Positions 433-24,148 of a stretch of DNA of 24,148 bases are shown here, in pieces (positions within the stretch are counted from its first letter, which is position 1; each line of letters starts with the position of its first letter). The stretch comes from a virus: positions 1 through 24,148 of IMG/VR virus record IMGVR_UViG_3300009431_000136; one strand, written 5' to 3'. The notes beneath the pieces are model-generated. The model did not search any database and was not told where the DNA came from. It worked only from the letters and a program-made list of their open reading frames with translations. The position numbers were made by a program, and so were the translations under genes.

Positions 433-1437
433 ATGAAGAAGATTTTGATCACAGGTAGTAATGGATTCATTGGTCATCATTTTTGTGAACACATAATTAA
501 AAAAACGGATTGGCAGATATTTGCAATTGATAAACTTACTTATGCATCGTTTGGCTTTGATAGGCTTAAAGATGTTAATGTTTTTAATATCAATAGAATT
601 CAATTATATACCTATGATTTCACCAAACCTTTAGAGGGTTATTTATCTAAGCAATTACAGGATGTTAATTATATTGTGCATATGGGAGCTGAGACACACG
701 TGGACCGTAGTATAGAGGATCCTAAGCCGTTTGTTTTGACAAATGTTTTAGGTACCATGAATATGTTGCAGTTTGCGCGTACGTGTAAAAATTTAGAAAA
801 GTTTATATACTTCTCTACAGATGAAGTATTTGGGCCTGCGGTAAAAGAATTTTATCCTTATGGGTTTTTGGAATGGGATAGATATAACTCATCAAATCCT
901 TATGCTGCTACAAAGGCCGCTGGAGAGGAATTATGCTTGGCTTGGCAAAATACCTATAAAGTACCGGTAATAATTACGCATACAATGAATGTATTCGGAG
1001 AACGTCAGCATCCGGAGAAATTTATACCTCTTATTGTTAAGAAAATACTTAATAATGAATTAGTGCATATTCATGCTGATAAAGAATGTAAGGTCCCGGG
1101 ATCCCGGTTCTGGATTCATGCGCGCAATGTTGCGGCCGCGATTATGTTTATATTAGATAAAGGTAGGATAAGAGATAAATATAATATAGTGGGCGAAAAA
1201 GAACTCAATAATCTTGAACTAGCTGACTCAATAGCAGATCTTATGTGTAGGGATCTTAGATATGAATTAGTAGATTTTCATTCCTCGAGGCCTGGACATG
1301 ATTTAAGATATGCACTTTGTGGCACCAAGTTAAAAGAAATGGGATTCAATATGCCTAAAGATTTTATGGAATCTCTAGATAAAACAATAAGCTGGATGTT
1401 GGAAAATAAAAGATGGTTAGATCTAAAAAATGACTAA
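433..1437 (+). CDS. dTDP-glucose 4,6-dehydratase-like NAD-dependent sugar epimerase/dehydratase
   Basis: This is an extended short-chain dehydrogenase (334 aa, close to the ~350 aa of RmlB). The NAD-binding Rossmann motif GxxGxxG is at G8, G11 and G14. The block AETHVDRSIEDP (residues 86-97) followed by TNVLGT, the TDEVFG motif (129-134) and the YxxxK pair (Y157, K161) are the signature of RmlB-type dehydratases, which convert a nucleotide-diphospho-glucose to its 4-keto-6-deoxy form with bound NAD. In RmlB, T-D-E of TDEVFG together with the Tyr form the active site, and all are present. An AAAGGAG site lies 8 bases upstream of the ATG. It stands alone among tiny genes, about 17 kb from the glycosyltransferases, which it could supply with a deoxysugar precursor. 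Its nucleotide specificity (dTDP, CDP, GDP or UDP) cannot be read from the sequence, so no symbol is given. Confidence 0.88.
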   Translation: MKKILITGSNGFIGHHFCEHIIKKTDWQIFAIDKLTYASFGFDRLKDVNVFNINRIQLYTYDFTKPLEGYLSKQLQDVNYIVHMGAETHVDRSIEDPKPFVLTNVLGTMNMLQFARTCKNLEKFIYFSTDEVFGPAVKEFYPYGFLEWDRYNSSNPYAATKAAGEELCLAWQNTYKVPVIITHTMNVFGERQHPEKFIPLIVKKILNNELVHIHADKECKVPGSRFWIHARNVAAAIMFILDKGRIRDKYNIVGEKELNNLELADSIADLMCRDLRYELVDFHSSRPGHDLRYALCGTKLKEMGFNMPKDFMESLDKTISWMLENKRWLDLKND

Positions 1438-3446: not shown

Positions 3447-4697
3447 ATGTTAGCTTGGAAGACAGAGAAGCGTAAAGTCTCCGATTTAATCCCCGCAAAA
3501 TATAATCCTCGTACATTATCAGATAAACAATCCAAAGACCTTTCTAATTCAATTCAGAAATTTAGCCTAGCGGATCCTATTATAATCAATAAGGATAATA
3601 AAATTATTGGTGGACATCAACGCATTAAAATCTTAAAGGATCAAGGAATTGTAGATGTCGATGTCCGGGTCCCTGATAGACAGTTATCAGAAAAGGAAGA
3701 AGAAGAGCTTAATCTCAGATTAAATAAAAATGTTGGTGAATGGGATTGGGACCTATTAGCTAAGTTTGATGAAGACATGTTATTAGGTGTTGGATTTGAT
3801 AGTAATGAGATGGATTTAATATTAGGAGTTGACGAAGATGATTTTAATGTCAAAAAAGAGATTGAAAAAATTAAAGGAAATCCAGTTACTAAAAAAGGAG
3901 ATTTATATCAATTAGGCGATCATAAATTATTGTGTGGTGATTCTACTAATATAGAAAGTTATAGAATATTATTTAATAAAATTAGGGCTAAGATGATTTT
4001 TACTGATCCACCATATAATGTTGATTATAGTTATGATTGGCGTTCTGGTTTGCATAAAGGTAAGACAGTTGAACATAATTTCTTTAATGATAAGAAAAGC
4101 GATAAGGAATATTATCAGTTTATCAAAGACTGTTTCTTAAATGCTTATAAATTTAGTTTTGAAGATACAAATTATTATTGTTGGTATGCAAATAAATTTC
4201 ATCATATAGTTAGGCAAAGTTTAATTGATGGAGGTTGGCATTTCTCCCAAGTTATAATTTGGATAAAAAACTATCAAGTATTATCGCCTGGACAAGATTT
4301 TCATAGAACATTTGAGCCTTATTTTCATGGTTGGAAAAAAGGCAAGAAACACTTCTATAATAAAATAGGTAATTATAAAGATATTGTTAATCACGAAGAG
4401 TATGAAGAGCTATTATCTACTTGGTATGAGAATAGAGATAAAATAAGCACGTATCAGCACCCTACTCAAAAGCCGCTTAGATTAGCTGAAAGAGCTATTA
4501 AGAAATCTTCAGTAGTAGATGATATAGTTTTAGATATGTTTGGAGGTTCTGGTTCTACTTTATTAGCTTGCGAGCAATTAAAAAGAAAATGTTTTACTAT
4601 TGAATTAGATCCCATATACTGTGATGTCATAGTCAAAAGATGGGAACAATTTACTAATAAAAAAGTGACGAATGTTACAAATTTGGTGACCGTATGA
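3447..4697 (+). CDS. ParB-like nuclease domain fused to an N4/N6 DNA methyltransferase
   Basis: This 416-aa two-domain protein is typical of phage and plasmid genes next to terminases. Residues about 8-95 form a ParB/sulfiredoxin-like domain, with a GGHQRI motif (residues 55-60) in the usual position. Residues about 150-410 are a DNA adenine/cytosine-N4 methyltransferase: catalytic motif IV DPPY is at 187-190 and the SAM-binding motif I DMFGGSGS is at 363-370, so the order IV before I marks the beta class. The expected product is a methylated base in a short recognition sequence, protecting phage DNA or marking it for packaging or regulation. No restriction partner is nearby. The ATG has no ribosome site and an in-frame stop lies at 3423-3425, so no upstream start is possible; the promoter position suggests a leaderless mRNA. 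It ends in an ATGA overlap with the terminase small subunit. Confidence 0.92.
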   Translation: MLAWKTEKRKVSDLIPAKYNPRTLSDKQSKDLSNSIQKFSLADPIIINKDNKIIGGHQRIKILKDQGIVDVDVRVPDRQLSEKEEEELNLRLNKNVGEWDWDLLAKFDEDMLLGVGFDSNEMDLILGVDEDDFNVKKEIEKIKGNPVTKKGDLYQLGDHKLLCGDSTNIESYRILFNKIRAKMIFTDPPYNVDYSYDWRSGLHKGKTVEHNFFNDKKSDKEYYQFIKDCFLNAYKFSFEDTNYYCWYANKFHHIVRQSLIDGGWHFSQVIIWIKNYQVLSPGQDFHRTFEPYFHGWKKGKKHFYNKIGNYKDIVNHEEYEELLSTWYENRDKISTYQHPTQKPLRLAERAIKKSSVVDDIVLDMFGGSGSTLLACEQLKRKCFTIELDPIYCDVIVKRWEQFTNKKVTNVTNLVTV

Positions 4698-9218: not shown

Positions 9219-11998
9219 GAAAGAAAATATTATTAGGTATATTAGGTTTATCGGTAATTCTTAAATTAGGATTTACGCAACCTGCACCTATACCGGTATT
9301 GGATTTTGCTGAGTTTATAGGAACAGTTACTACTGCTTTTAATAATATACTTTCATCGGCTGATTCTGATGTACAGTTAGCTTTAGATACAATAGATGAT
9401 ATTGATGCGTCAGATATAAAAGTAAGAGTAATATCTGGATCTACTTTTGAAACAGTTCAGGATGATGTTGATACATATACTAGCACTGGATTGATAGATG
9501 GAGGAGCGATAACAGATGGAGGGAGCGAAACTATAGATGTAGCGATTCTTAAGGGTGCATTACGTGATACAAATAGCCATAGAGCAGATATATACTTATT
9601 TGATTTAGCTGCTGTTAGTGGCACAGCTATTCCTACAGATACTATTCGTTATATAGGCGTTGAATATAATGCGGGATCTCCACAGCTTATAGTTAAGACA
9701 ACTGATAGTTGGAATATGCATACTGAATTTCCATTGGGTTCAGTTGTTAATGAAAGTGGGACTATACATGCTATAAATAATCCTCAATTTGTTTCTAATT
9801 TTGCGGCTCACGGACTTCAGAGATTTTATGAAACAGAAAAATTGTTTAGAGACAATAGAAGTGGTGGAATTATTATAGGTGAAACCGGAACGCGAAACGT
9901 TACGGTAACGACAGGTACATTATGGGATAGGGTAAACGAATTTACAATAGCAACTATTGATACTAGCGGTTCTGATACCTTTGATAGCTATTCTTCAGCA
10001 GGATTAGAATCAAGTGGAAATTCTCAATGGGATAATGCTAATTATGATAATAGCGGGACGTTAACAGCATTAGGTCCTAATAAATATGCAAATCTATGGT
10101 GGTTTATAGAAAGCGACGGCGATTTAGTTTGTGTATATGGAACTGCGGAATATCCTACATCAGCTCAAGCTTCAGAAGAAGGAAGCCCAAGCGTTCTTCC
10201 TGATAGAATAATAGTTCATGGACGTATAATAGGTAGATATATTTTCCAAGAAGGAGCGGCCACAACTACAACTATTGAAAGCGCTTTCGATACTGTATTT
10301 GCGACAACTGGTATTACCGATCATGGAAATCTTGGTGGTCTTGCAGATAATGATCATACTCAATATGGACAATTAGCTGATAATGCAGTAATAGCTGGAG
10401 ATTGGGATAATACAGCTAATCCATGGGATATTTCAGATGAAACTAATGCTGCAGTTAGTGGAACTCTCCAATCTTTAACGGGCGATACTTTTTCTATTAA
10501 AGAAGGAGCATTAACAAGTTTAAATATTTGTCAATACGATGCAACAGGTACATTGCTTAAATGTTCGCTTCCACCTACGGATGATACCTTATTAATGGGG
10601 AGTGGAAGCGATTGGCAAAATAAAACTATTCCGAATTGTACAGGATCAACTCAACATTTACGATATACTCAAGCTACAAATACTTGGTCATGTACAACTG
10701 AATCAGTACCTATTACTTACTGGGAACAAACTGGTACCGTAATTCATCCTGGTTCAGCAGGATCAATTACAGATGAAGTATCAATAGGCGCCACTGCTAC
10801 AGTAAATTCTTCTAAATTTTCAATAGATGGTGATGATGATCAAATACAAATGGTTATTCAAGGTAATGCTACTCAGAATAGCGATTTATTATTATTAGAA
10901 AAATCAGATGGATCAGATCTAATTAGAATAAATGAAGATGGACATATAGGATTGGATGGTACTGCTCCGCCTACTACATCTATAATGTCTGTTGATTCTT
11001 CTGGTGGTTTACGTGGTGCTTTAAATTTTGTTTATGAATATACAAGTGGAACAGCGGCATCAAATATTCTTTCATCAGAAACTTTATCTGTTGATTTTGC
11101 TGTTAACTATGGAATATTAAATAGGCAGACTTTAAACAATGATAGCGCAGGAACTAATAATTTCTATGTTAATGCTGCTGAATTTGGTATAGATACAGAT
11201 ATTTCTATATCTGGTGGCGTTCAAAATTTCTACGGTTATCATGTTAATGATAATAGAGGATTAGCAAATGCGGGTTCAAGTGGCGGTACAGTTAATAAAT
11301 ATGGTGTATTTATCGAAGCTTTTGGTGCTATGGCAGGTTCTATCACTACTAGACAATTTGGAATTTTTACAAATGAGCCTATCGTTATTATTCCTGATGT
11401 AGGCCTTTATTTTGAAGGTGTAGTAGGTTCTGCGTTAGGAGATACATTTTTGTCTTATGATTCAGGATCTGGAACTTTAGGTCTTACAACTGATGGAACT
11501 AAAATTTTAACTCTTGATACAGATGGATTACGAACTCCTGGTATGGTATCGAGATTTGGGTTTTATTATGCTTATGCAAGCGCTGAAATAGCAGGAAATG
11601 TAGCATATACTACCTTAGATCTAGATACTGTTGTAATAGCAGATTCAGATTATTATTCAGAAAGTGCAGGTACAGTTACGATACAAAAAGATGGATTATA
11701 TAAAATAGGATATCATGTTAATTTTGATTTAGATGCAGGTACTCGTTATCATGGAAGAGCAGCTATTTTTGTTAATGTAGGTGTTGGTGATACATTAATA
11801 GGACATTCAGAATCTGGTGCTTATGCAAGAATCACAACTCAAGCAGGAACAAGCGCAACTAACGAAATAATTCATTCCTTAAATGCGAATGATACAGTTG
11901 AATTAAAAGCTATTGTAGAAAATACTGATTTAGATATAGGTGGAGTAATTACAGAACCTGCAAATTTGGTAATGGAGTATATTCGAGATGATTCATAA
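9215..11998 (+). CDS. fibre-like structural protein with signal peptide and C1q/TNF-like C-terminus
   Basis: A 927-aa protein rich in Gly, Ser, Thr, Asn and Asp and nearly free of Cys, as in extended virion fibres. The motif DHGNLGGLADNDHTQYGQLA (about residues 369-388) is a common element of phage tail-fibre and base proteins. The last 145 residues (from FGFYYAYASAEIAG, about 783) have the strand pattern of a C1q/TNF-like jelly roll, including GLYKIGYHVNFDL, a fold used as a trimeric receptor-binding or adhesion head. Oddly, residues 1-22 (MRKKILLGILGLSVILKLGF) look like a Sec signal peptide: basic N-terminus, hydrophobic core, and a QPAP segment after it. The gene sits between portal and prohead protease rather than with tail genes, which are not in the window. 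It may be a head fibre or an exported protein. Host-receptor role is inference. Confidence 0.8.
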   Translation: MRKKILLGILGLSVILKLGFTQPAPIPVLDFAEFIGTVTTAFNNILSSADSDVQLALDTIDDIDASDIKVRVISGSTFETVQDDVDTYTSTGLIDGGAITDGGSETIDVAILKGALRDTNSHRADIYLFDLAAVSGTAIPTDTIRYIGVEYNAGSPQLIVKTTDSWNMHTEFPLGSVVNESGTIHAINNPQFVSNFAAHGLQRFYETEKLFRDNRSGGIIIGETGTRNVTVTTGTLWDRVNEFTIATIDTSGSDTFDSYSSAGLESSGNSQWDNANYDNSGTLTALGPNKYANLWWFIESDGDLVCVYGTAEYPTSAQASEEGSPSVLPDRIIVHGRIIGRYIFQEGAATTTTIESAFDTVFATTGITDHGNLGGLADNDHTQYGQLADNAVIAGDWDNTANPWDISDETNAAVSGTLQSLTGDTFSIKEGALTSLNICQYDATGTLLKCSLPPTDDTLLMGSGSDWQNKTIPNCTGSTQHLRYTQATNTWSCTTESVPITYWEQTGTVIHPGSAGSITDEVSIGATATVNSSKFSIDGDDDQIQMVIQGNATQNSDLLLLEKSDGSDLIRINEDGHIGLDGTAPPTTSIMSVDSSGGLRGALNFVYEYTSGTAASNILSSETLSVDFAVNYGILNRQTLNNDSAGTNNFYVNAAEFGIDTDISISGGVQNFYGYHVNDNRGLANAGSSGGTVNKYGVFIEAFGAMAGSITTRQFGIFTNEPIVIIPDVGLYFEGVVGSALGDTFLSYDSGSGTLGLTTDGTKILTLDTDGLRTPGMVSRFGFYYAYASAEIAGNVAYTTLDLDTVVIADSDYYSESAGTVTIQKDGLYKIGYHVNFDLDAGTRYHGRAAIFVNVGVGDTLIGHSESGAYARITTQAGTSATNEIIHSLNANDTVELKAIVENTDLDIGGVITEPANLVMEYIRDDS

Positions 11999-12008
11999 AG
12001 GAGGATAT

Positions 12009-12275
12009 ATGAATAAAATAGTTTTAATAATGATGTTATGTTTGATAGCAACCTTTGTATATGGAAATAATCAAGACATATTTGATAATGCACCTGTTGA
12101 AGTAATAAATATTCCTGCTAAAAAAATATTTAACTATGAGACTGGACAACTTATAGCAATAGCAGAGGAAGAAGTTAAATTAAGCGTAGGTAATGCTTCT
12201 AAATCATATACTGTTCCTGTAGGTAAAGTTTTTAAATTTAAAATAGTTTTACAAGGTAGATTAGAGGACGAATAA
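12009..12275 (+). CDS. small exported protein with signal peptide
   Basis: ATG 12009 is preferred over the in-frame ATG at 11988: AAAGGAGG (11997-12004) precedes it by four bases and the protein then begins with a clean signal peptide (MNKIVLIMMLCLIATFVYG, cleavage likely after residue 19). The mature part of about 69 residues is beta-rich and ends with SYTVPVGKVFKFKIVLQG, wording reminiscent of phage fibre or adaptor ends. It follows the signal-peptide-bearing fibre directly and overlaps the next gene at TAATG, so a partnership with the fibre is plausible. The unused upstream start lies inside the fibre gene. Confidence 0.65.
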   Translation: MNKIVLIMMLCLIATFVYGNNQDIFDNAPVEVINIPAKKIFNYETGQLIAIAEEEVKLSVGNASKSYTVPVGKVFKFKIVLQGRLEDE

Positions 12276-12412
12276 TGTTAGAAGGCGTATATCCTCAACA
12301 GAAAATTATAATAGAAACAGTCAAAGGGACTGCCTTTTGGATTAAGATAGTGATTGCTTTGATACCTGTTATTGGAACAATAATTTTAGCGAAAATAAGG
12401 AAAAAGAAATGA
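12275..12412 (+). CDS. small single-helix membrane protein, holin-like
   Basis: A 45-residue protein with a polar N-terminus, one hydrophobic segment (about residues 21-39, FWIKIVIALIPVIGTIILA) and a strongly basic tail (KIRKKK). The arrangement with a basic cytoplasmic C-terminus suits a small holin or an anchor. It begins in a TAATG junction and ends in an ATGA overlap. Too short to place in a family. Confidence 0.5.
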   Translation: MLEGVYPQQKIIIETVKGTAFWIKIVIALIPVIGTIILAKIRKKK

Positions 12413-12735
12413 ATGGAGAAGATAAAATTTTTTGTGAAAGAAGATTAACTATATTAGAAACCAAACTCGAAGAGGGTTGGAAATCTCATGATAGAGAAGC
12501 CAAAATTCGTCAAGATGCAACTTGTAAAAAATTAGATATAATAGTAAAAGAAGTAAGTAAGATAAACGAAAGATGCTTTGATAGGACTGAAAGCTATGTA
12601 TTAATGGATAAACATATAAAAGATGAAGGTAGACTTAAAAGTATATGGTCTGATAGAAGATTTCAGGCAATGCTTGGAATTATGGCAGGTGGTTTTATTC
12701 TTATGGGAGTAATGATAACGGCTTTAATCCAATGA
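12409..12735 (+). CDS. coiled-coil protein with C-terminal membrane anchor (XhlA-like arrangement)
   Basis: A 108-residue protein: helical charged region with heptad-like spacing (residues about 5-80), then one hydrophobic helix (FQAMLGIMAGGFILMGVMITALI, about 85-107). The order, a soluble coiled coil followed by a C-terminal transmembrane anchor, resembles XhlA-type proteins that act with holins in cell lysis, and phage lysis cassettes commonly contain one. The sequence itself lacks a decisive motif. The ATGA overlaps on both sides place it in one translational unit with its neighbours. Confidence 0.6.
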   Translation: MNGEDKIFCERRLTILETKLEEGWKSHDREAKIRQDATCKKLDIIVKEVSKINERCFDRTESYVLMDKHIKDEGRLKSIWSDRRFQAMLGIMAGGFILMGVMITALIQ

Positions 12736-12881
12736 AGATAGAAGATAAGAAAGCAATAGTTGCTAAATTAGTAGAGATAGATAAGTATACCGATGTTATA
12801 AAAGAACAGATGAAACTGATAGCATCTAACTACATAGAAGTTTTAAGGATACTTTCTAATGACGATAGCAGTAAAAATTGA
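12732..12881 (+). CDS. small helical hypothetical protein
   Basis: A 49-residue, largely helical and charged protein with no membrane segment, beginning in an ATGA overlap and overlapping the next gene by 23 bases. Its last codons contain the ribosome site region of the gene that follows the next one only weakly, so translation of the downstream frame is probably coupled. No family recognised. Confidence 0.45.
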   Translation: MKIEDKKAIVAKLVEIDKYTDVIKEQMKLIASNYIEVLRILSNDDSSKN

Positions 12882-13038
12882 AAAAGGAGTTCACGAGAAG
12901 ATAAAAATTATTAGTTGCCAATTAAACAGCCTTATACATTGGACTATGGAAGATATTAAAAGATCTAAAGACAAATTAAGGACGCTTAGAAAACTTACAA
13001 ACAATATAGAAGAAATGGTGATAATAAAAGATGAATAA
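12859..13038 (+). CDS. small helical hypothetical protein
   Basis: A 59-residue protein predicted helical by composition (EDIKRSKDKLRTLRKLTNNI), without hydrophobic membrane segment and with one Cys (residue 20). It starts 23 bases inside the preceding gene and overlaps the following gene by eight bases. The ATG at 12859 has no strong ribosome site of its own, so expression would depend on coupling. A regulator of the neighbouring holin-like proteins is one possibility, not supported further. Confidence 0.45.
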   Translation: MTIAVKIEKGVHEKIKIISCQLNSLIHWTMEDIKRSKDKLRTLRKLTNNIEEMVIIKDE

Positions 13039-13210
13039 AATAATTGATAAATTATTATCAGGAAGATTTATACTTACTTTAATTTCTGGCGTTGTTTTTA
13101 TATATGCTGTTTATACAAAAGCATTAGAAGCACAGGCTATTTCTGCGATTATTTCAATGGTATTTATTTCTTATTTTCAAAAAACAGATAGAAAAAAGGA
13201 GGAACAATGA
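13031..13210 (+). CDS. two-helix holin-like membrane protein
   Basis: A 59-residue protein with two hydrophobic segments (about residues 12-28, RFILTLISGVVFIYAVY, and 34-49, QAISAIISMVFISYF) joined by a short turn and ending in a basic tail (KTDRKKEEQ). Two-helix proteins of this length and charge pattern are the class II holins of many phages; holins form membrane holes that time lysis. The assignment rests on topology only. It ends in an ATGA overlap, and its last codons AAAAAGGAGGAA carry the ribosome site of the next gene. Confidence 0.55.
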   Translation: MNKIIDKLLSGRFILTLISGVVFIYAVYTKALEAQAISAIISMVFISYFQKTDRKKEEQ

Positions 13211-13497
13211 ATATCTGGGAAAAAATCAAAGCATTTTTCAGTAATGCAGTAGTGAAAATTTCTGACATTCTAAAAGAAGTATTCAATGTCGCTTTCAAAA
13301 TCATCATATCTGAATTAAAAGACATTGCAATGAACACAGTACAAGAATTGAAAAATAGCGATTTGTCTGGTCCTAAAAAAAGAGAAGAAGCATTTAAAAG
13401 AATAAAAGATTATGCTATAACAAATTTAGTAAATGTTTCTGATAGTGAAATTAATTTAATAATCGAAGTCTTTGTGAAAAAATTGAAAGGAAATTAA
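13207..13497 (+). CDS. amphipathic protein, possibly Holin_LLH-like
   Basis: A 96-residue protein with an amphipathic N-terminal helix (IWEKIKAFFSNAVVKISD), a second hydrophobic-polar helix and a C-terminal domain REEAFKRIKDYAITN ... SDSEINLIIEVFVKKLKGN. The C-terminal pattern of a helix, a short Asn/Ser-containing turn and I-E-x-x-V-K-x-L resembles the end of the phage LL-H holin family (superfamily VI), where a membrane helix precedes it; here no fully hydrophobic helix is visible, so the match is weak. Excellent AAGGAGG site upstream. Confidence 0.5.
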   Translation: MNIWEKIKAFFSNAVVKISDILKEVFNVAFKIIISELKDIAMNTVQELKNSDLSGPKKREEAFKRIKDYAITNLVNVSDSEINLIIEVFVKKLKGN

Positions 13498-13498
13498 T

Positions 13499-13765
13499 AT
13501 GGTACCAGTAGTAGCGGGACAAGCAGTAGGCAATTTTATATGGCACTTCATTAAACGTTTCAGTGCATTTTTATTTTGTGCTGGTTTAGTATGGGCTGTT
13601 TATGTAACTGTTGTGAGGCCGCATACAAAAGGAACATTTAAAAACAAGCAAGAAGCTGAACGAATATCTAATTACGATAATGCACCAAAACAAACTTTTT
13701 TCGGTTGTGCTAATTATAAAATATTAGAGGCTAAAAAAAATGATAAAGTGGATAATAGCAAGTAG
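13499..13765 (+). CDS. single-pass membrane protein of the lysis-like cassette
   Basis: An 88-residue protein with one hydrophobic segment (about residues 20-40, FSAFLFCAGLVWAVYVTVV) and a soluble tail of about 45 residues containing NYDNAPKQTFFGCANYKIL. There is no lipobox, so it is not an outer-membrane spanin, but an inner-membrane spanin-like or accessory role is possible. It begins two bases after the previous stop and overlaps the next gene by 26 bases. No family recognised. Confidence 0.5.
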   Translation: MVPVVAGQAVGNFIWHFIKRFSAFLFCAGLVWAVYVTVVRPHTKGTFKNKQEAERISNYDNAPKQTFFGCANYKILEAKKNDKVDNSK

Positions 13766-14177
13766 CATATGCGGAATCCTGGGCAGATTGGGTGGCATAG
13801 GTAAACCTTTTAATACTAAATATAGAGATCTGGGATGTCCATTTATGACTTATGGTTATTTATTATTTCTTTGGCATCCGATAGATACTCTGGGATGGGT
13901 AATGTTGATTTTATGTATTCCTATAACATTAGGAGCATTGAGTACATATTGGGATAAATTATTTGGTTATGATAATTTCTGGTTCCATGGTTTTATGTGT
14001 GGATTAGCTATATTTCCTTTGATATGGGCCGGGTTGATCTGGTGGTTAATATTAATACGTGCTTTAGTGATCGCTATACTAATGGGCGGTTGGAGTAGAA
14101 TATTTAAAAATGATATAATAGAAGAGACGGGACGATATTTCTTCTTAGCAGCTACTATACCTATATTAATACTATGA
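13740..14177 (+). CDS. multi-pass integral membrane protein
   Basis: A 145-residue, tryptophan-rich protein with about four to five membrane segments (roughly residues 3-19, 37-50, 51-70, 83-116 and 130-145). It carries a conserved-looking RxGGxGxPFNTKYRDLGCP stretch after the first helix and MGGWSRIFKND before the last. I have seen similar proteins described only as phage membrane proteins of unknown function. It is much larger than typical holins and its location after the holin-like genes might make it a lysis or superinfection-exclusion protein. The start has GAGG nine bases upstream; the end overlaps the next start by ATGA. Confidence 0.6.
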   Translation: MIKWIIASSICGILGRLGGIGKPFNTKYRDLGCPFMTYGYLLFLWHPIDTLGWVMLILCIPITLGALSTYWDKLFGYDNFWFHGFMCGLAIFPLIWAGLIWWLILIRALVIAILMGGWSRIFKNDIIEETGRYFFLAATIPILIL

Positions 14178-16494: not shown

Positions 16495-16863
16495 ATGGCA
16501 AAGAACTTTAAGTTTTCAGGTAAAAGACTTACGATTGCAGGTATAGCCGCTGATGTGTCATCTGGTGCCTTAACGCGTCAAAAGGGATATATAGGTATCC
16601 CATTGAACCATAAACTCTCTGGTGCGTCTGTAGCTTTCGCATTAGAGGGAGTATGGGGCATGACCTGGGATTTCTGGGCGAATAGCCAACCAGCTGTTGG
16701 TACTATTCTGTATTGGGATACTAGCACTGGATTGCTTTCACTTGGATCTGCAAACGATGATTACGCAGCTGTGAAAGTTGTTACTGCGGTAAGTGCAACC
16801 GATGGTTCGTTTGATGGTTTGCTACTGCCACAGGGAAGACCGGCAGGACAAGATCAAAGCTAG
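16495..16863 (+). CDS. capsid decoration/stabilising protein (DUF2190-like)
   Basis: A 122-residue beta-rich protein. The stretch FALEGVWGMTWDFWANSQPA followed by VGTILYWDTSTGLL (residues about 48-81) matches the DUF2190 family, capsid-stabilising or decoration proteins that bind the outside of the mature head. Its position between scaffold and major capsid protein is the standard one for lambda gpD-type and DUF2190 proteins. Strong AAAAGGAGG site ten bases upstream. A short inverted repeat (CTACG/CGTAG, 16452-16469) lies in the 49-base gap before it but is too weak to call a terminator. Confidence 0.8.
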   Translation: MAKNFKFSGKRLTIAGIAADVSSGALTRQKGYIGIPLNHKLSGASVAFALEGVWGMTWDFWANSQPAVGTILYWDTSTGLLSLGSANDDYAAVKVVTAVSATDGSFDGLLLPQGRPAGQDQS

Positions 16864-16896: not shown

Positions 16897-17865
16897 ATGC
16901 ATAAATCGCTTTTGCAAATGTATTATGATTTGAGAGAGTCAAATTCAACTACTGACTTTCCCAAACTTCTGGCCAATACTATGTTTAAAGTTTTATTGGA
17001 TAAATTCAAAGGTGTTAAATCTCCATGGAGACAATACACTATGATTTCCAATATGGTAGACTTTAAAAAAGCAGACAGAGTATTGGTATCCGAAGCTCCG
17101 GATCTAGTAGAAGTTGAGGAAAACGGTCCCTATAGTGATTCGACACTTACCGATGATAATTATCAGATTCAATTAAGAACTTATGGGAGAACGTTTACAG
17201 TTAGTAGGAGAACCATTATTAATGATGATCTTGCAGCTATAGTAAGACAACCGGCTCGCTTTGGTAGATCATCAGGCCGTACTTTAGCTAAAAAAATAGT
17301 TGATCAAATTGAAGGCGATGGTTTGATGTATGATGGTAAGTCAATGTTTCACGTTGATCACAGTAATTCTGGTGACACCGCACTAGCTAATTCGGCCGCT
17401 GGTATTGCTGCGGTATCTGCTGGTATGACCGCTATTGAACAATCTACAGAGCCTCGTTCTGGTGAAAAAATGGGTCTAGAAGCTAGATTTATTATGGTCC
17501 CTCCAGAATTAGAAGATACAGCATTAAGAATTACTGAAGGCCAGGCTTTTATACCTGTTACTACTGCAGGTGGTACTACTGAAATTGGCAAAGCTAAAAG
17601 ATTGAAGGTGCTGAGAGAGGCATTTTTAACCAGTACGACTGCATGGTATGTTCTTGCAGGGCCTCAAGAAGCTCCGCCGGTTGAAGTAGGTTTCTTAGGT
17701 GGTAAAGAATCTCCGGATCTCCTGTTGAAAAAAGCAAATGTAGTTAATCTCGCTGGAGGAGATGATCGCTGGCAGTATGAGTTTGATGAATTGGTTTACA
17801 AAGTACGTCACGATTGGGCCCTTGCTCGCGCTTATTGGCAAGGTATCTATAGAGGTAAAGCTTAA
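16897..17865 (+). CDS. major capsid protein (HK97-fold, Mu gpT-like)
   Basis: A 322-residue protein whose sequence fits Mu-type major head subunits: a helical N-terminus, RTYGRTFTVSRRTIINDDLAAI (about residues 94-115), and further on RSSGRTLAKKIVD and the C-terminal KANVVNLAGGDDRWQYEFDE segment ending in a basic YRGKA. It has the usual length of the HK97-fold shell protein and sits after protease, scaffold and decoration genes. A very good AAGGAGG site is 9-10 bases upstream. It is followed by a strong hairpin (17881-17920), as expected for a gene whose product is needed in hundreds of copies. Codon use is richer in G and C than in most of the window, consistent with high expression. Confidence 0.93.
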   Translation: MHKSLLQMYYDLRESNSTTDFPKLLANTMFKVLLDKFKGVKSPWRQYTMISNMVDFKKADRVLVSEAPDLVEVEENGPYSDSTLTDDNYQIQLRTYGRTFTVSRRTIINDDLAAIVRQPARFGRSSGRTLAKKIVDQIEGDGLMYDGKSMFHVDHSNSGDTALANSAAGIAAVSAGMTAIEQSTEPRSGEKMGLEARFIMVPPELEDTALRITEGQAFIPVTTAGGTTEIGKAKRLKVLREAFLTSTTAWYVLAGPQEAPPVEVGFLGGKESPDLLLKKANVVNLAGGDDRWQYEFDELVYKVRHDWALARAYWQGIYRGKA

Positions 17866-17880
17866 AAAAGTGTGTGTGTG

Positions 17881-17920
17881 TAAACCGTGTGGGGAACTTT
17901 CTAGTTCCTCACACGGTTTA
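17881..17920 (+). terminator. strong hairpin after the capsid gene (terminator or RNA-stability element)
   Basis: TAAACCGTGTGGGGAACT (17881-17898) pairs with AGTTCCTCACACGGTTTA (17903-17920): an 18-pair stem with one G-U, closed by the four-base loop TTCT. It lies between the capsid stop (17863-17865) and the connector's ribosome site. The classic terminator U-run is nearly missing (only TTT at the end of the stem, then AAAAGGAGG), so partial termination or protection of the upstream capsid mRNA is more likely than full stop. The same DNA read on the other strand is also a hairpin followed by TTT. Confidence 0.7.
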
Positions 17921-17934
17921 AAAGGAGGATAGCC

Positions 17935-18315
17935 ATGAGTTTTACATTTAATACTGGAACGAATATCGGAAAGGTTAGAGTTCTTATTGGTGATACAACT
18001 CAGGCTACTGCATTATTATCTGATGAAGAAATAAATGTAACTTTAGGATTAACAAGTAATGATATATATTTAGCTTCTGCGATTTCTTTAAAAAGTATAG
18101 CTGCAAATAAAGCTGCAATCGCTAAGAGAATTAAAGCTGGTAATTATGAAGAAGATCCAAAAGCAGTAGTCAGTGGATTACTTGAAATTGCTAAGAATTA
18201 TGAAGAGCGCTCGAGAATGACTCCGGCTGATGCTGATACTGAAATTTTCTATACTGATTTTAATTATAATGATATTTTAATTCAAAAAGCATTAAGAGGC
18301 GAAATAAATGATTAA
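17935..18315 (+). CDS. head-tail connector / head-completion protein (gp6-like)
   Basis: A 126-residue protein with the typical start IGKVRVLIGDTTQATALLSD (about residues 11-30) followed by EEINVTLGLTSNDIYLASAISL, the pattern of the adaptor proteins (HK97 gp6-like and DnaT-like domains) that form the ring beneath the portal and join head to tail. The remaining part is helical and ends in a Tyr/Asp-rich tail. Location directly after the major capsid gene is standard. AAAGGAGG lies 7-10 bases upstream. Its end overlaps the following methyltransferase gene by eight bases, so a sugar-modification type enzyme is tied directly to a connector gene. Confidence 0.82.
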   Translation: MSFTFNTGTNIGKVRVLIGDTTQATALLSDEEINVTLGLTSNDIYLASAISLKSIAANKAAIAKRIKAGNYEEDPKAVVSGLLEIAKNYEERSRMTPADADTEIFYTDFNYNDILIQKALRGEIND

Positions 18316-18889
18316 TATTTCAAAACAAGATTTAATAGAATTGCAAACAATATCACAGAATAAATTACCAGAGGATTTAGAAGAAATGGTATCTACTCAA
18401 AAAGATGCATTACTTAAATGCCCTGGCGTGATTGCTCATTATTATAGATTCTTTTATTTTCTTACTACAAAATTTAAGCCTTCTGTTATTTTAGAATTAG
18501 GAACAGATACAGGTATTTCTATAGCTTGTTTAGCTGGAGGTAATCCTAATAGCAAAATATATACTGTAGATCATACAAATCATCTAAATAGAAATTTCAT
18601 AAAAGATAATGTGAAATATTTAAATCAAGATAGTTTAAAACCAATAGATATAAAAAATATAGATATTTTATTTATAGATACTAATCATGATGGAATAAGA
18701 GTATATGAAGAATATATGTTTTATAAAAATAAAATGTCTGAAAATGGGATAATCTTTTTTGATGATATTTATTTAACTGAGGCAATGAAATATTTTTGGA
18801 TTAATCTTGTGCCAGAGAAAGGATTTAAATTTGATTTAGATATACATGGAAAGGCAGGTTTTGGAGTTATATTATTAAATAATCAATGA
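18308..18889 (+). CDS. class I SAM-dependent methyltransferase, small (paralogue of 20490-21074)
   Basis: A 193-residue protein with SAM-binding motif I VILELGTDTGISIACLAGG (about residues 61-79), a following acidic strand end (VDHT), then IDILFIDTNHDG (about 116-127) and the strand GIIFFDDIYLTEAM (about 147-160). This layout belongs to the small MTase_24-like group of Rossmann methyltransferases, which often act on sugars or small molecules and contain metal-binding aspartates like those in FIDT and FDDI. The substrate cannot be read; a methylated sugar is the favoured guess from the neighbouring glycosyltransferases. It overlaps the connector gene by eight bases. The end HGKAGFGVILLNN is shared with the paralogue (HGKNGFGAIILN). 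Confidence 0.8.
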   Translation: MINISKQDLIELQTISQNKLPEDLEEMVSTQKDALLKCPGVIAHYYRFFYFLTTKFKPSVILELGTDTGISIACLAGGNPNSKIYTVDHTNHLNRNFIKDNVKYLNQDSLKPIDIKNIDILFIDTNHDGIRVYEEYMFYKNKMSENGIIFFDDIYLTEAMKYFWINLVPEKGFKFDLDIHGKAGFGVILLNNQ

Positions 18890-18917
18890 GGGCTCAGAGC
18901 CACAGAAAGGGGTAATG

Positions 18918-19919
18918 ATGAAAATAGTACATGAATTAAATCAGTTAGATTTTGGAGGAGTAGAAAAAATAATTCGTAATATCATTAAATACGATAAACA
19001 AAATGAACACTTTATCGCTGCTTATAAAGATGGTAATTATAAATCAGAACTTGAAAAGGTTGGAGCTAAAATAACATTACTCTCAGATAAAGAACTAGAT
19101 ATTCAAGCAGATATTATACATATACATTGTGGAGGCGCTCCGAGTAATTTAGCTCATGATCTCAAAAAAGAATTTCCTATTGTTGAAACTATCCATTCTC
19201 CTGTTAGATCCCCTAATCGTGATGATTATATAACTCAAAGAGTCGGTGTAACTAAAGCTGTAGCATCTTTAAATAAAAATGCTGCATATATTCTTAATGG
19301 AATTGATTTTGAATCTATGATCCCTACAAAAACAGCTGATCAAGTTATAAAAGAATTAAAATTAAATTCTGAAATACCTATTATTGGTAGACTTGGCCGC
19401 ATAGGTAAAGATAAAGGATTAGAGGAATGGTTATTAACTTGCTATTATCTTCAACAAGAAGGAATTAATTTTGTACCTATAATCATAGGGGATGAGGCAC
19501 AGAATTGCAATGGTTATAAAGGAATGTTAAAATTAATGGTTGAATCTTTACCCATTAAAAATGTAATATGGATTCCTAATCAATTAAATATAGCTAATTA
19601 TTTACAAATAATGGAAGTTTTTTTATATCCTAGTCCAACAGAAGGATTTGGCCTTTCTCTTATTGAAGCAGCTTATATGAATTCAGTAGTTGTAACATAT
19701 AAAAATGATGTCAATCGTGAATTATTAGAAGGATATGCAATATTGGTTGATAAGGATATAAAATCACTTGTAGTTGGAACAAGGAAAGCTTTAAATACAA
19801 ATATCCAAGATGCTTTTAGTGGATTATCTAGTGCCTGGGTAGAGACAGAATACGATGCTGAAAGAATGTCTCAGGAATATCAAGACTTATATAAGGAGGT
19901 TTATGAGCGCTGTAACTGA
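18918..19919 (+). CDS. GT4-type glycosyltransferase (GT-B fold)
   Basis: About 333 residues from ATG 18918; ATG 18915 is one codon earlier and equally possible, but 18918 has the better distance to AAAGGGG (18907-18912). N-terminal features are LDFGGVEKIIRNI and HIHCGGAP; the C-terminal donor-binding domain has IIGRLGRIGKDKGLEEW (about residues 153-169) and FLYPSPTEGFGLSLIEA (about 235-251), where the Glu-containing E-G-F-G-x-x-x-x-E motif binds the nucleotide sugar. It is therefore a retaining GT4-family enzyme that moves a sugar from a nucleotide donor to an unknown acceptor. Its 3' end overlaps the next structural-type gene by 17 bases and contains that gene's ribosome site. All motifs are intact. 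Confidence 0.88.
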   Translation: MKIVHELNQLDFGGVEKIIRNIIKYDKQNEHFIAAYKDGNYKSELEKVGAKITLLSDKELDIQADIIHIHCGGAPSNLAHDLKKEFPIVETIHSPVRSPNRDDYITQRVGVTKAVASLNKNAAYILNGIDFESMIPTKTADQVIKELKLNSEIPIIGRLGRIGKDKGLEEWLLTCYYLQQEGINFVPIIIGDEAQNCNGYKGMLKLMVESLPIKNVIWIPNQLNIANYLQIMEVFLYPSPTEGFGLSLIEAAYMNSVVVTYKNDVNRELLEGYAILVDKDIKSLVVGTRKALNTNIQDAFSGLSSAWVETEYDAERMSQEYQDLYKEVYERCN

Positions 19920-20493
19920 TATATTAACAAGTGTAGTTAATCTTAAACGCAATACAGCTTTCGTAGTTGATGAGATTGCCGTAGGGGCCTCCATATCTGT
20001 AGATAGACAACCTGCTAAAAGTAGTAGGATAGAAGTAGAAATTATAGGCGCTACCGTTTCATCTGGTTTGGTTAATCTTGCAGGCAATACTACTGAAACT
20101 TTAAACTTCGCGGATAATGGAGTTCAAGTAGGACAGTTGAATTTTACAAGTCTTACGGGTATTACAATATCAGGCATTAGTGATGGATTTATAAAGGCTA
20201 GAGCCTTAAGCAAAATGGGACAACCATTAAATCAGGAAATTCTTATTTCAGAGAATATGAATATAAGATTTTTTGCAGAAAATGGTCGAATAAGAACTTT
20301 AAAACAAGGTCAAGAGGATGTTTCTAATTATAGATTAATTGCTGAACCAGATGCAGATGTACAAGATAATGATTTAATATTTGCTGTATCAGGAATATTC
20401 GGCTTAACTTTAGGTCAGATAAAATTCTCTGAAAAACTTTATGATTTTTCTGGAACGGCTCATCATGTAGAAGCGGAGATAATGAAAATATGA
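19903..20493 (+). CDS. probable virion structural protein, beta-rich
   Basis: ATG 19903 is chosen because AAGGAGG ends five bases before it; an in-frame ATG at 19855 would lie deep inside the glycosyltransferase gene and adds a basic segment unlike the rest. The 196-residue product is beta-strand-rich and has the low-charge composition of virion proteins (SVVNLKRNTAFVVDEIAVGA, GITISGISDGFIKARAL). No family recognised. It is flanked by a glycosyltransferase and a methyltransferase with overlaps of 17 and 4 bases, so it is embedded in the sugar-modification set. It could be the modified substrate itself, or a connector or tail-terminator component. Confidence 0.6.
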   Translation: MSAVTDILTSVVNLKRNTAFVVDEIAVGASISVDRQPAKSSRIEVEIIGATVSSGLVNLAGNTTETLNFADNGVQVGQLNFTSLTGITISGISDGFIKARALSKMGQPLNQEILISENMNIRFFAENGRIRTLKQGQEDVSNYRLIAEPDADVQDNDLIFAVSGIFGLTLGQIKFSEKLYDFSGTAHHVEAEIMKI

Positions 20494-21074
20494 TAGAAAA
20501 AATAATAAGAGATTTATCAGAACTATGTGATGTCCCAAATGAAATATATAATAGTATAATTAAACAAGAAAGTATACATCCCGAGAAAGCTACATATTAT
20601 AGATTTCTTTATCAATTAAGTAAAAAAATTAAACCTTATTTATGTGTTGAACTTGGTACTAATCGTGGCATTGCTGCTGCATGCTTGGCCCTGGGTAATC
20701 CGGATGGCAAGGTTATAACTATTGATATAAAAGATAAAAAGAAATTTGAGGGATGCTTACGACCTAATATCGATTTTTGGATTCAAGATAGCTTGGCTCC
20801 TTTAAAATATAATTTAGAAAATATTGATATTCTTTTTATAGATACATCTAGTAAAGGATCACGTAATAAAATAGAATATGATCATTGGATACCATATATG
20901 AGAAAAGGCGGTTTAGTTTTAATTGATGATATTCATATAGTTGAAGATATTAATGGCAATATAACTACGGATTTTATGTCTGATTTTTGGTTTGATTTTA
21001 AACCTAAAGGTACTAAAATACAATTACCCTTGCATGGTAAAAATGGATTTGGAGCGATAATATTAAATGGCTAA
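20490..21074 (+). CDS. class I SAM-dependent methyltransferase, small (paralogue of 18308-18889)
   Basis: A 194-residue protein with motif I LCVELGTNRGIAAACLALG (about residues 51-69), then an acidic ITID strand, IDILFIDTSSKGS and GGLVLIDDIHIVED. It lines up along its entire length with the product of 18308-18889, including TYYRFLYQLSKKIKP versus HYYRFFYFLTTKFKP, the D-S-L block after the SAM domain and the terminal HGKNGFGAIILN. The two are clear paralogues that have diverged, more likely recruited for different positions or acceptors than a recent copy. It starts in an ATGA overlap with the structural gene and overlaps the next gene by eight bases. Confidence 0.8.
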   Translation: MIEKIIRDLSELCDVPNEIYNSIIKQESIHPEKATYYRFLYQLSKKIKPYLCVELGTNRGIAAACLALGNPDGKVITIDIKDKKKFEGCLRPNIDFWIQDSLAPLKYNLENIDILFIDTSSKGSRNKIEYDHWIPYMRKGGLVLIDDIHIVEDINGNITTDFMSDFWFDFKPKGTKIQLPLHGKNGFGAIILNG

Positions 21075-21756
21075 TAGACGTATATCTCATATAGAATTAA
21101 AAAATATTTATAAGGATCAAGATATTTGGGTTATTGGATCTGGTACTTCAATGCAATTTATAGCAAAAGATTTTTTTAAAAATAAGGTTACAATAGGTCC
21201 CTGTCAGGTATGGAAATATTTTGAATTAGATTATAATTTACATAAGCATCAAGAGTTTGTTCAAGAAGCAATAGATAATAAACAAATAGTTATAGCTTCA
21301 AAGCATGATTGTGGAGATATAGATCAACCCTTAAATGAATATCAATCTCATTTTATTTTTACTCATAAGCGTGGAAGATTCGGAGAACTCGAAACTAATT
21401 TCGTAGAAAACTTAAAATCGATAGGTAAAGATGATGATATTTTTGTTAGTTATAGCACAATAAGTAGCTGTATTCATTTAGCTGCATATATGGGAGCAAA
21501 AAATATAATGTTATGTGGCCATGATTGTGGTTGGATAGATAATAAATCCCACATGTTTGATTACGGTAAAAGATTAATAGAATTTCATAAAAATGATTTC
21601 AATAAATATCATAATATGTGGTTTAAAAGAGTTGAAGAAGATTCAATAAGGCTTCGTCAAAAACTTAAAGAAATTTATAAATGTAATATCTATTCTCTAA
21701 ATCCTTTTATTAATTTAGGACTTGAAGGACATAAATATGATACCCAACAACCCTGA
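21067..21756 (+). CDS. DUF115/MptE-like protein, possible glycosyltransferase
   Basis: A 229-residue protein starting with a nucleotide-binding-like segment DIWVIGSGTSMQF (about residues 18-30) and containing SCIHLAAYMGAKNIMLCGHDCGW (about 138-160). The pairing of a V-I-G-x-G-x-S strand with a later AAYxGAKxIxLxGxD strand is the layout of DUF115/MptE-like proteins, related to flagellin sialic-acid or pseudaminic-acid transferases of the Maf group and to sialyltransferase-like folds. True Maf proteins are much larger, so only the core domain is here. It most likely transfers or handles an unusual sugar. The gene overlaps both neighbours, and the radical SAM start lies in its last 20 bases. Confidence 0.62.
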   Translation: MANRRISHIELKNIYKDQDIWVIGSGTSMQFIAKDFFKNKVTIGPCQVWKYFELDYNLHKHQEFVQEAIDNKQIVIASKHDCGDIDQPLNEYQSHFIFTHKRGRFGELETNFVENLKSIGKDDDIFVSYSTISSCIHLAAYMGAKNIMLCGHDCGWIDNKSHMFDYGKRLIEFHKNDFNKYHNMWFKRVEEDSIRLRQKLKEIYKCNIYSLNPFINLGLEGHKYDTQQP

Positions 21757-22675
21757 AATAAGATTTGAAGTAAGTACAATTTGTAATCATAATTGCATAT
21801 TCTGTAAAAATGATTCTATGAATAGAAAGCGTACAGTTATGAGTTATAGATTATTTAAAGATTTAATAGATAAAATATTCAAAGAAACAAATCAATATAA
21901 TGTAGTATCTTTTGCTGGTATAGGTGAACCTCTTTTTGATTTTTATCTTGAAGATAAGATAAAATATATTAAAAGAAAATATCCACATGTTCATATTCCA
22001 ATGGTTACTAATGGATCCTTATTAAGTATAACTAGATTTAGAAGTCTTCAAGAAGCAGGACTTGATATTCTTAGAGTTAGTTTTCACGGTGGTAATAGAA
22101 AATCATATATGAATTTACATCAAGTTGATGATTTTTATAGAACATCTAGAACAATAGAAATAATATTAGATCATAAATTCAATATCAAAACTAAAATAGC
22201 TTTAACATTTGCTATGGTAAAAGGAATAAATGATAAATCAATAGAAGCATGGAAGAATAAATGGATTAGACCCGATATATGGCTTTCTGAAATATGGACA
22301 GCTCATAATTGGACTACAGCTTTTAAATTTAGGAAAGAACAAGATATTAAAAAATCTACATGTGGCAGAGTATTTAAGGCTCCTCTACAAATTCAGGTAG
22401 ATGGTACTGTGAATATGTGTTGTTTTGATTATGATGGTAAATTATTATTAGGCGATTTGAAATATCAATCTCTAAAAGAAATATTCTCAGATAAGGCCTT
22501 TGAATATATAGCGAAATATCATACTACTGGTAATTTTGAAAATAGCGATTTAATTTGTGAGCATTGTGATCAAAGAAATGAAAATAAATCCGAGTCTTTA
22601 ATATTTAGTTCTCGGTTTAAAAATAAAGAAGATAGAATAACAAAAAGTTCAACTGCTTATAAACCCATAATTTAA
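21737..22675 (+). CDS. radical SAM enzyme with SPASM-like C-terminal Cys cluster
   Basis: ATG 21737 has GAAGGA seven bases upstream and is preferred over a TTG at 21722. The 312-residue protein has the radical SAM cluster CNHNCIFC (C16, C20, C23), which binds the 4Fe-4S cluster that cleaves S-adenosylmethionine, then GIGEPL (the GGEP-like SAM motif) and VTNGSLL. C-terminal cysteines (CGRVF, MCCFDYDG, CEHCDQ) and the sequence VDGTVNMCCFD match a SPASM-like auxiliary cluster domain. Radical SAM/SPASM proteins include peptide-maturase and sugar- or cofactor-modifying enzymes; nothing close by looks like a precursor peptide, whereas the neighbours act on sugars, so a sugar or protein-side-chain modification is most likely. 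Starts 20 bases inside the DUF115-like gene. Confidence 0.85.
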   Translation: MIPNNPEIRFEVSTICNHNCIFCKNDSMNRKRTVMSYRLFKDLIDKIFKETNQYNVVSFAGIGEPLFDFYLEDKIKYIKRKYPHVHIPMVTNGSLLSITRFRSLQEAGLDILRVSFHGGNRKSYMNLHQVDDFYRTSRTIEIILDHKFNIKTKIALTFAMVKGINDKSIEAWKNKWIRPDIWLSEIWTAHNWTTAFKFRKEQDIKKSTCGRVFKAPLQIQVDGTVNMCCFDYDGKLLLGDLKYQSLKEIFSDKAFEYIAKYHTTGNFENSDLICEHCDQRNENKSESLIFSSRFKNKEDRITKSSTAYKPII

Positions 22676-22687
22676 AGGAGGCATATG

Positions 22688-24148
22688 ATGCCCAAATATT
22701 CAATTGTTTTGATAGCTTCAAATGGAATATCCTTAACGATCAAATGTATTGAAAGCATATTAGGAAACAGTAAAGATTATGAACTTATCATAATTGATAA
22801 CAATACAAATGATGGCACAAGAGGATATCTACAATCTATGTCTACGGATAAAAAATTTAAGAATGTTTCAATCATAGAATCAAATGAAAATTTAACATTT
22901 GCTGAAAATAATAATCTGGGTTTAAATATTGCCAAAGGAAAATATATTGTTTTTATTAATAATGATACAATAGTTTGTAAGGATTGGTTGGATAGAATGG
23001 AAATCCATTTTAATAGAGTACCAGTTAGAAATATAGCAGCTGTGGGCCCGGTTACTTCCATGTCTAATGGAAAACAATGTGTTGGTTTACAAGATTCTGA
23101 AGAATGGTATAAAAAATTTAAGGGACGCTGGGTTCACACTGGATTATTATTTGGTTGGTGCATAATGATAAGAAAAAAGGTTCTTGATGAAATAGGTGGC
23201 TTTGACGAAAGTCTTAAAAATAGTCATGAAGATAATGATTTATGCTTACGCATTTCTTTAGCTGGATATAAAATGATCATTGCTTATGATACTTATATTT
23301 ATCATCTAGGTCAGGGAACATTACAGCAAATTATGTCTACTGAAGATTATATGAAAAATGGATATATCAATAGGGAACGCTATTATGATAAATGGTATAA
23401 AAAAACCAAGAAAAAACTTGTTGCGGTTTATAGAACTAATAACGGAAAATATCTTATGGATAGCTTGCATCAAACCTCTAAATTTGTAGATAGTATTATA
23501 ATTCATTTTTGCAGAACGAATATGTCTACTATTGAAATACAAGCATTAAAAAAAGCTTTCCCTAAAATAGTAAAAATAGGTTTTTATGATGGAATTTTTC
23601 AAGAAGATTATGAACGTAATTGGCTACTTCAACAAGCTCTCAAGCTACATGAACAAGGAAAAGCAGATTGGTGTATATCTATAGATGATGATGAAATATA
23701 TGAAGATAAAATTATAGATAGAATTCAAGAAATGATGAATCCGCGTAATCCTGAAATTATGGGATATTGGTGTAATTGGCGTACGATCTGGGAGCGTCGT
23801 TTAGATAAAGAATATTATCGTACGGATTCAACATTTGGTAAATTCTGTAATTACAGATTTTTCAGATTAATTAAAAATCAAGAAATTATATCCAATCATC
23901 CAGAAGGACATCATTGTGGAAGTGCTCCTTCATTTGCTGACGAAAATCTTCGTTGGTGTAATATTCGTGTTAAACATTTAGGATATGATACTCCAGAACA
24001 ACGTCAAAAGAAATATGAATTTTACGAAAAAAATGATAATTTTAAAACTAAAGCAGATATTGGATATGATGATTATAAACATTTAATATCTAAGAATGTC
24101 GAACTTGAAGAATATATTGCGGATAATAGTATTTCTCTTTTAATGATG
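22688..24148 (+). CDS. multidomain GT2 glycosyltransferase (3' partial)
   Basis: At least 487 residues are visible with the C-terminus outside the window. ATG 22688 is six bases after AAAGGAGG; ATG 22685 is the alternative. Domain 1 (about 1-230) is a GT2-family GT-A fold: the start YSIVLIASNG, IIIDNNTNDG, the donor-metal motif FINNDT (about 90-95) and HEDNDLCLR (about 179-187). Domain 2 (about 243-475) begins LVAVYRTNN and has SIDDDE (about 330-335) as the metal motif, with the length of a second, shorter GT2-like domain. The last visible residues ISLLMM are how another GT2 domain typically begins, so a third catalytic unit may follow. Such multi-headed enzymes assemble oligosaccharides. It follows the radical SAM gene by 12 bases. 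Confidence 0.85.
   Translation, partial: MPKYSIVLIASNGISLTIKCIESILGNSKDYELIIIDNNTNDGTRGYLQSMSTDKKFKNVSIIESNENLTFAENNNLGLNIAKGKYIVFINNDTIVCKDWLDRMEIHFNRVPVRNIAAVGPVTSMSNGKQCVGLQDSEEWYKKFKGRWVHTGLLFGWCIMIRKKVLDEIGGFDESLKNSHEDNDLCLRISLAGYKMIIAYDTYIYHLGQGTLQQIMSTEDYMKNGYINRERYYDKWYKKTKKKLVAVYRTNNGKYLMDSLHQTSKFVDSIIIHFCRTNMSTIEIQALKKAFPKIVKIGFYDGIFQEDYERNWLLQQALKLHEQGKADWCISIDDDEIYEDKIIDRIQEMMNPRNPEIMGYWCNWRTIWERRLDKEYYRTDSTFGKFCNYRFFRLIKNQEIISNHPEGHHCGSAPSFADENLRWCNIRVKHLGYDTPEQRQKKYEFYEKNDNFKTKADIGYDDYKHLISKNVELEEYIADNSISLLMM

Follow-up and report, generated by a model that had tools for sequence, protein, structure and literature searches.

Sugar-enzyme genes kept in the neck operon of an uncultured phage clade, a candidate system for virion glycosylation

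What could sugar enzymes do among the genes that build the neck of a phage particle? The question is raised by virus record IMGVR_UViG_3300009431_000136, of which positions 1 to 24,148 were analysed. This virus fragment of 24,148 bases, taken as a whole, is called the window below; its 3´ end truncates the last gene. After the gene of the major capsid protein (MCP), there follow in order a connector-position protein, a Methyltransf_24 (MT24) methyltransferase, a GT4 glycosyltransferase, a beta-rich protein, a second MT24 methyltransferase, an MptE-like protein, a radical SAM-SPASM enzyme (rSAM) and a multidomain GT2 glycosyltransferase (Table 1). A sequence-only reading of the same DNA had listed these genes and proposed that the enzymes are co-expressed with the virion proteins and modify either the particle or the host surface. 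Family matches (Pfam/PHROG-type) and positions bear out every gene on that list. From the observed gene content, order, common orientation, conservation, catalytic motifs and lack of membrane segments we infer, with a probability of roughly 0.6, that this phage-encoded module glycosylates a virion protein in the cytoplasm during late expression.

The main genes of the window all lie on the + strand, and from the connector onward neighbours either overlap or are separated by at most 25 bases. The tight packing described earlier thus holds, with overlaps of up to about 20 bases or gaps of 9-25 bases; the MptE-like and rSAM genes overlap by more only when the listed TTG is taken as the rSAM start in place of a better-placed ATG. 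No terminator-like site was found on the + strand within 16897-24148. Overlaps, missing terminators and conserved order together give good support to the proposed co-expression with virion genes.

Relatives were recovered by searches with the MptE-like, rSAM, MCP and GT4 proteins. A single-sequence MCP search of viral contigs gave no match, while an alignment-based one succeeded. About 15 contigs share the structural block at an MCP identity of 36-66%, and their consensus order is connector, variable enzymes, GT4, the beta-rich protein (hereafter the closure protein, for reasons given below), GT2 (about 800 amino acids), gp10, tail terminator and tail tube. The connector homologue stands directly after the MCP gene or near it, and GT4 and closure genes are adjacent or one short open reading frame (ORF) apart wherever both are intact. 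In L002, L003, L012 and L017 the series is connector, MptE-like, rSAM, methyltransferase, GT4, closure, GT2, gp10, terminator, tube and tape measure (contig L012 stops inside the closure gene); homologues of the first window methyltransferase (MT1) in L002, L003 and L012 are 40-52% identical. Contig L055 has connector, methyltransferase, GT4, closure, MptE-like, rSAM and GT2, which is the window order minus one methyltransferase. The MptE/rSAM pair is missing from L019, L040, L041, L045, L046, L050 and L051, where other tailoring genes lie 5´ of GT4 (MT24- and MT11-type methyltransferases); a polysaccharide pyruvyl transferase precedes GT4 in L041 and L045 (PF04230 E 1e-13 and 3e-12), and its close homologue in L046 was identified by reading. 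A DUF115-methyltransferase fusion and an rSAM gene are located between MCP and connector in L039, and L021 has rmlB, 43% identical to that of the window, immediately 5´ of GT4. The accessory enzymes (MT24, MT11, the MptE-like/rSAM pair, pyruvyl transferase, rmlB) are interchangeable between contigs. Many independent contigs carry these families again in this interval, so the arrangement is not due to chance; the layout is confirmed in a stronger form than first stated, as one inherited across an uncultured clade. Searches for a cultivated relative of the tail tube or of the most divergent type of GT2 protein (L088) found none, and the clade is one of uncultured tailed phages with no cultivated member found.

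Because these contigs had partly been found through sugar genes, a further survey was seeded with the tail-tube protein, whose structural gene lies downstream of the cassette, and the loci were annotated with iterative profiles. Grouping at 90% tube similarity reduces the 40 loci to 25 groups, of which 23 are readable and two break off before gp10. A GT2-family gene lies directly 5´ of gp10 in 20 of the 23, a fraction valid for this clade and not for phages at large, since the tube alignment was seeded from glycosyltransferase-bearing contigs. The closure homologue precedes GT2 in most groups. Structural genes separated from sugar genes, which would speak against the proposed co-expression, were looked for in this way, and GT2 stays in the late operon in those 20 groups. 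The most distant members (tube 32-38%) lack GT4; most of them carry rmlB upstream of closure and GT2, and L088 has a methyltransferase there.

The window holds about 60% of the GT2 protein, namely its first two GT2 domains. Full-length homologues measure 763-809 amino acids in close relatives and reach 1045 in distant ones; the full homologue of L003 (803 amino acids) has three glycosyltransferase domains and TPR. Among the 19-20 proteins compared, the conserved motifs are NND/NDD and EDND/DDND in domain 1, D-x-D-E in domain 2, and D-x-D-E with HE in domain 3; L084 lacks domain 1. Full-length relatives thus possess a GT2 domain with D-x-D plus TPR, in a region beyond the window end. With a three-sequence profile, the closest solved structures to this C-terminal part are GmaR (E 6e-21) and SunS (E 1e-14), and single-sequence searches agree. 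GmaR, the Listeria flagellin GlcNAc transferase, and SunS, the sublancin S-glycosyltransferase, share with it a GT2 domain followed by TPR, whereas the phage domain forms the last third of a protein of about 800 amino acids with two further GT2 domains, and no anti-repressor part is recognised in it. We prefer a protein acceptor mainly because flagellin is what GmaR glycosylates, and the GmaR TPR has been proposed as the part that binds the protein to be modified (PMC9638930). Hydropathy revealed no membrane-spanning segment in any cassette enzyme.

A probable course of events is as follows. The module would be expressed with neck and tail genes, its core being GT4 and the large GT2 protein, in which two or three GT-A domains are counted and the C-terminal end is formed by the GmaR/SunS-like domain and TPR. 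This last domain would attach or extend a sugar on a co-made structural protein, before or during assembly; candidate acceptors are the major capsid, cement, closure and tail-tube proteins. The methyltransferases would O-methylate the glycan, the rSAM would modify a sugar, the MptE/GT42-like protein would transfer a CMP-activated sugar, and rmlB would supply a dTDP-deoxysugar. The benefit might lie in shielding from binding or proteases, in adsorption or in stability. The tight co-directional operon, an order kept at 36-66% MCP identity and the conserved motifs speak for virion glycosylation. So do phage-encoded GT4 and GT2 enzymes whose proximity to virion genes is kept in relatives, as would be expected of such a system, the tube-seeded survey and the precedent in mycobacteriophages (PMC12619734).

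Several points weigh against this proposal. Acceptor site and glycan are both inferred, most viral records are fragmentary, and other targets, DNA and the host envelope, have to be considered. GT2 is absent from three of the 23 readable tube-sharing groups (L072/73, L074, L082/83). The SunS profile TIGR04195 matches L003 (E 2e-17), L045 (E 6e-21) and L070 (E 1e-12), at 63.6 bits for L003 and 74.8 bits for L045 against a cut-off of 350 bits; because these scores are so far under it, the C-terminal part is similar to SunS and not a member of its family, and it may work alike. The window itself lacks this part because the contig ends, so that its presence is taken from relatives. Lastly, GT2 proteins of the L088 type, which are the furthest removed, match no solved structure significantly.

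The beta-rich protein had been described as virion-type. It aligns with the same-place proteins of all intact relatives, always between GT4 and GT2/gp10. Its AlphaFold2 (AF2) model is all-beta, with a predicted local distance difference test (pLDDT) score of 88.6. A beta-domain insert varies by lineage, being short in L002, L003 and L055 and longer in L017 and L051, and total length ranges from 115 to 276 amino acids. The homologue of L003 matches DUF6093 (E 3e-5). A profile of the protein gave no match to solved structures, and a PDB fold search none below E 0.02, the weak ones including the phiCD508 neck, XkdH and the FCWL1 head-tail interface. Because fold matches are weak, the label of a head-closure or stopper-position protein is drawn mainly from position, which suggests it. 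The glycan might plausibly be accepted by the insert or by beta domains exposed elsewhere.

Wherever MptE-like and rSAM genes occur as a pair in a cassette, six cases in all, they stand in tandem. The name DUF115/MptE, given to the first protein earlier, proved unsafe: a weak match to PF01973 is present (30.6 bits, curated cut-off 34.6), yet the predicted fold (AF2 model, pLDDT 78.5) lies no further from GT42 sialyltransferases than from MptE, with Foldseek values of E 3e-6 for Cst-I and E 5e-6 for Cst-II as against E 1e-5 for MptE HPPK. The TM-scores are only about 0.5 and for this reason its substrate cannot be named. A sequence profile gave nothing significant among solved structures (best MptE HPPK, E 0.037). 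A pterin function, as in MptE, was set aside; the neighbourhood showed no pterin genes, and the genes recruited alongside encode sugar enzymes. The weak PF01973 match, the likeness to Cst-I and Cst-II and the full DUF115-methyltransferase fusion of L039 recall Maf/DUF115 flagellin glycosylation and GT42, whereas the window protein is short and single-domain.

The rSAM keeps the CX3CX2C and SPASM cysteines of radical SAM/SPASM enzymes invariant in nine homologues. In the tree, cassette rSAMs form one clade (100/99) together with that of L011, nested in an Omnitrophota radiation. The tail tube matched nothing in 384 Omnitrophota genomes, and so, despite this placement, no host is claimed. In L011, an unrelated phage, a TerL-like gene and a portal gene flank the rSAM and a methyltransferase-like ORF (L011:839-2754); the rSAM therefore either reached structural operons at least twice or was passed on by exchange. 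Elsewhere, on phage contigs of 79-223 kb (L014:572-4738, L015:9199-13746, L016:7564-11521), an rSAM homologue lies amid KDO8P synthase-type, CMP-Kdo synthetase-type and transaldolase-like genes, possibly a phage CMP-Kdo set. It adjoins kdsA- and kdsB-type genes in L014 and a kdsB-type gene in L015 and L016. A Kdo-type set also occurs in an archaeon, Methanolobus vulcani, where kdsB-kdsA-kdsD-kdsC are followed by an rSAM homologue and a GT2 (L035:6806-10936). Unlike such CMP-Kdo sets (kdsA/B/C/D), the window and the cassettes showed no kds gene, and the link to ulosonic acids runs by neighbour homology only. Given the GT42-like fold and the Kdo-gene neighbours of rSAM relatives, our guess would be that one member of the pair transfers a CMP-sugar and the other, the rSAM, modifies a sugar.

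The enzymes might instead remodel a host surface glycan late in infection, or block superinfection, and not act on the particle. GT4, GT2, pyruvyl transferase, rmlB and methyltransferase families are typical of surface polysaccharide loci, and cellular rSAM homologues reside within such loci in Omnitrophota and Methanolobus. Unlike those loci, the cassette has no flippase, membrane polymerase or initiating phosphoglycosyltransferase among its genes, nor any membrane segment; at its C-terminus the GT2 protein is akin to enzymes that glycosylate proteins and peptides, and the place of the GT2 gene between closure and gp10 is fixed over large divergence. We consider host modification unlikely. 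Between the two targets that the sequence-only reading had offered, the virion is favoured by the GmaR/SunS-like part and the absent membrane proteins, with target and glycan staying conditional.

Still less probable is a set of independent morons gathered at a permissive site of the structural operon without joint function. The accessory content does vary (L019, L040, L041, L051, L055), other genes insert nearby, and the unrelated phage L011 carries its rSAM and methyltransferase between TerL and portal. Against this, the same closure gene is always bracketed by GT4 and GT2 in the close clade, the MptE-like and rSAM genes always travel in tandem and the cassette rSAMs fall, with that of L011, in their single clade; all recruited genes are sugar-related.

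A glycan for hypermodified phage DNA is a somewhat poorer candidate again. DNA-glycosylating phage glycosyltransferases are known (literature cited in PMC12619734) and the window encodes a fusion of ParB and DNA methyltransferase, but the cassette lies among neck genes and not replication genes, and a system acting on DNA would not be expected to include MT24, rSAM-SPASM and GmaR-like parts. No thymidylate-synthase/hydroxymethylase (PF00303) occurs in ten virus records from the clade, including contigs of 61-173 kb, with the reservation that these may be incomplete and that hydroxylation can take other routes; DNA glycosylation was set aside after this search. That the large GT2 is built into the virion instead of working as an enzyme is hardly credible: its fixed place between closure and gp10 would fit, yet the catalytic motifs are all kept (NND/NDD, EDND/DDND, D-x-D-E twice) and three groups sharing the tail genes do without it.

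Virion glycosylation encoded by phages is not new in kind, since it is published for mycobacteriophages, on capsid and tail-tube subunits (Freeman et al. 2023, cited in PMC12619734). The sequence-only reading, to which a system of this make-up was new, has to be qualified accordingly. Both systems share phage-encoded glycosyltransferases and virion proteins as proposed acceptors (capsid and tail-tube C-termini in mycobacteriophages); in the window clade the set comprises rSAM-SPASM, MptE/GT42-like and GT2+TPR proteins and is placed inside the neck operon. No Mycobacterium phage was among the tblastn matches of GT4, GT2, rSAM and MptE in 50,697 phage records (E 1e-5), a search that did not include a comparison with the published mycobacteriophage genes themselves.

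Table 1. Features of the window, with recomputed gaps (negative values are overlaps)
Feature	Position	Strand	Gap to preceding gene (bases)	Support
dTDP-glucose 4,6-dehydratase-like (rmlB), probable sugar-nucleotide supplier	433..1437	+		TIGR01181 E 2e-79, below its cut-off
Head decoration (cement) protein	16495..16863	+		PF09956 E 1e-7; phrog_122; upstream context
Major capsid protein (MCP)	16897..17865	+		PF25209 E 2e-37; phrog_4523 E 6e-58; upstream context
Connector-position (head-tail adaptor-like) protein	17935..18315	+	+69	phrog_1732 E 4e-7; relatives' homologue at or near MCP 3´ side
Class I methyltransferase MT1 (Methyltransf_24)	18308..18889	+	-8	PF13578 E 5e-11, above cut-off
GT4 glycosyltransferase, soluble	18915..19919	+	+25	PF00534 E 2e-16
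Head-closure/stopper-position protein (suggested), variable beta-domain insert	19903..20493	+	-17	Position, AF2 all-beta, weak fold matches
Class I methyltransferase MT2 (Methyltransf_24)	20490..21074	+	-4	PF13578 E 5e-11 (above cut-off); PF01596 E 5e-5
MptE-like/GT42-like protein, putative CMP-sugar glycosyltransferase	21067..21756	+	-8	PF01973 E 4e-7 (below cut-off); fold matches
Radical SAM-SPASM enzyme (rSAM)	21737..22675	+	-20 with ATG at 21737; -35 with listed TTG	PF04055 E 2e-17; PF13186 E 7e-10
Multidomain GT2 glycosyltransferase, first two GT domains, truncated by contig end	22685..24148	+	+9	PF00535 E 9e-20

The 5´ part of the window contains, in order, rmlB, the fusion of a ParB-like domain with a DNA methyltransferase (3447-4697, immediately 5´ of TerS), TerS, TerL (5025) and portal (6996). 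Further downstream come a fibre-like gene (9215) and a series of small genes, then the genes of a protease/scaffold-like protein (14784), of cement and of MCP. The small genes of the portal-to-scaffold interval (9215-14177) number about ten, and membrane segments are present in some of them (13499, 13740); together with the fibre-like gene they possibly make up a lysis or appendage island. Portal adjoins scaffold in several relatives (L012, L045). Between MCP and connector, L039 (1178-8762) and L040 (3716-8195) hold an insert of 5-8 kb with fibre-like and other genes, and this interval is a second variable site of the structural block. The perfect AAGGAGG-ATG signal occurs seven times in the window against 0.4 expected, and precedes MCP, connector and GT2 among others. 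The closure protein probably starts at 19903, replacing an earlier 19855, because AGGAGG precedes that ATG.

Taken together, we also propose, as a tentative and rather doubtful extension, that phages of a broad uncultured clade inherit the module at one fixed place, the head-tail junction, where a tri-domain GT2 would act as a self-contained assembler of protein glycans and swappable tailoring enzymes, including the rSAM and the GT42-like transferase, would give a phage-specific methylated or ulosonic-acid-type surface sugar. If our assumptions are true, then virion glycosylation would be a long-kept trait of a broad clade and reach beyond a curiosity of actinobacterial phages. A fixed core enzyme in the neck operon with swappable tailoring enzymes would resemble diversifying selection on the chemistry of the particle surface. 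Protein glycosylation by phages could then be reconstituted from the defined set of genes in the cassette, and a GT2 gene between closure and gp10 would serve as a marker for further cases in metagenomes.

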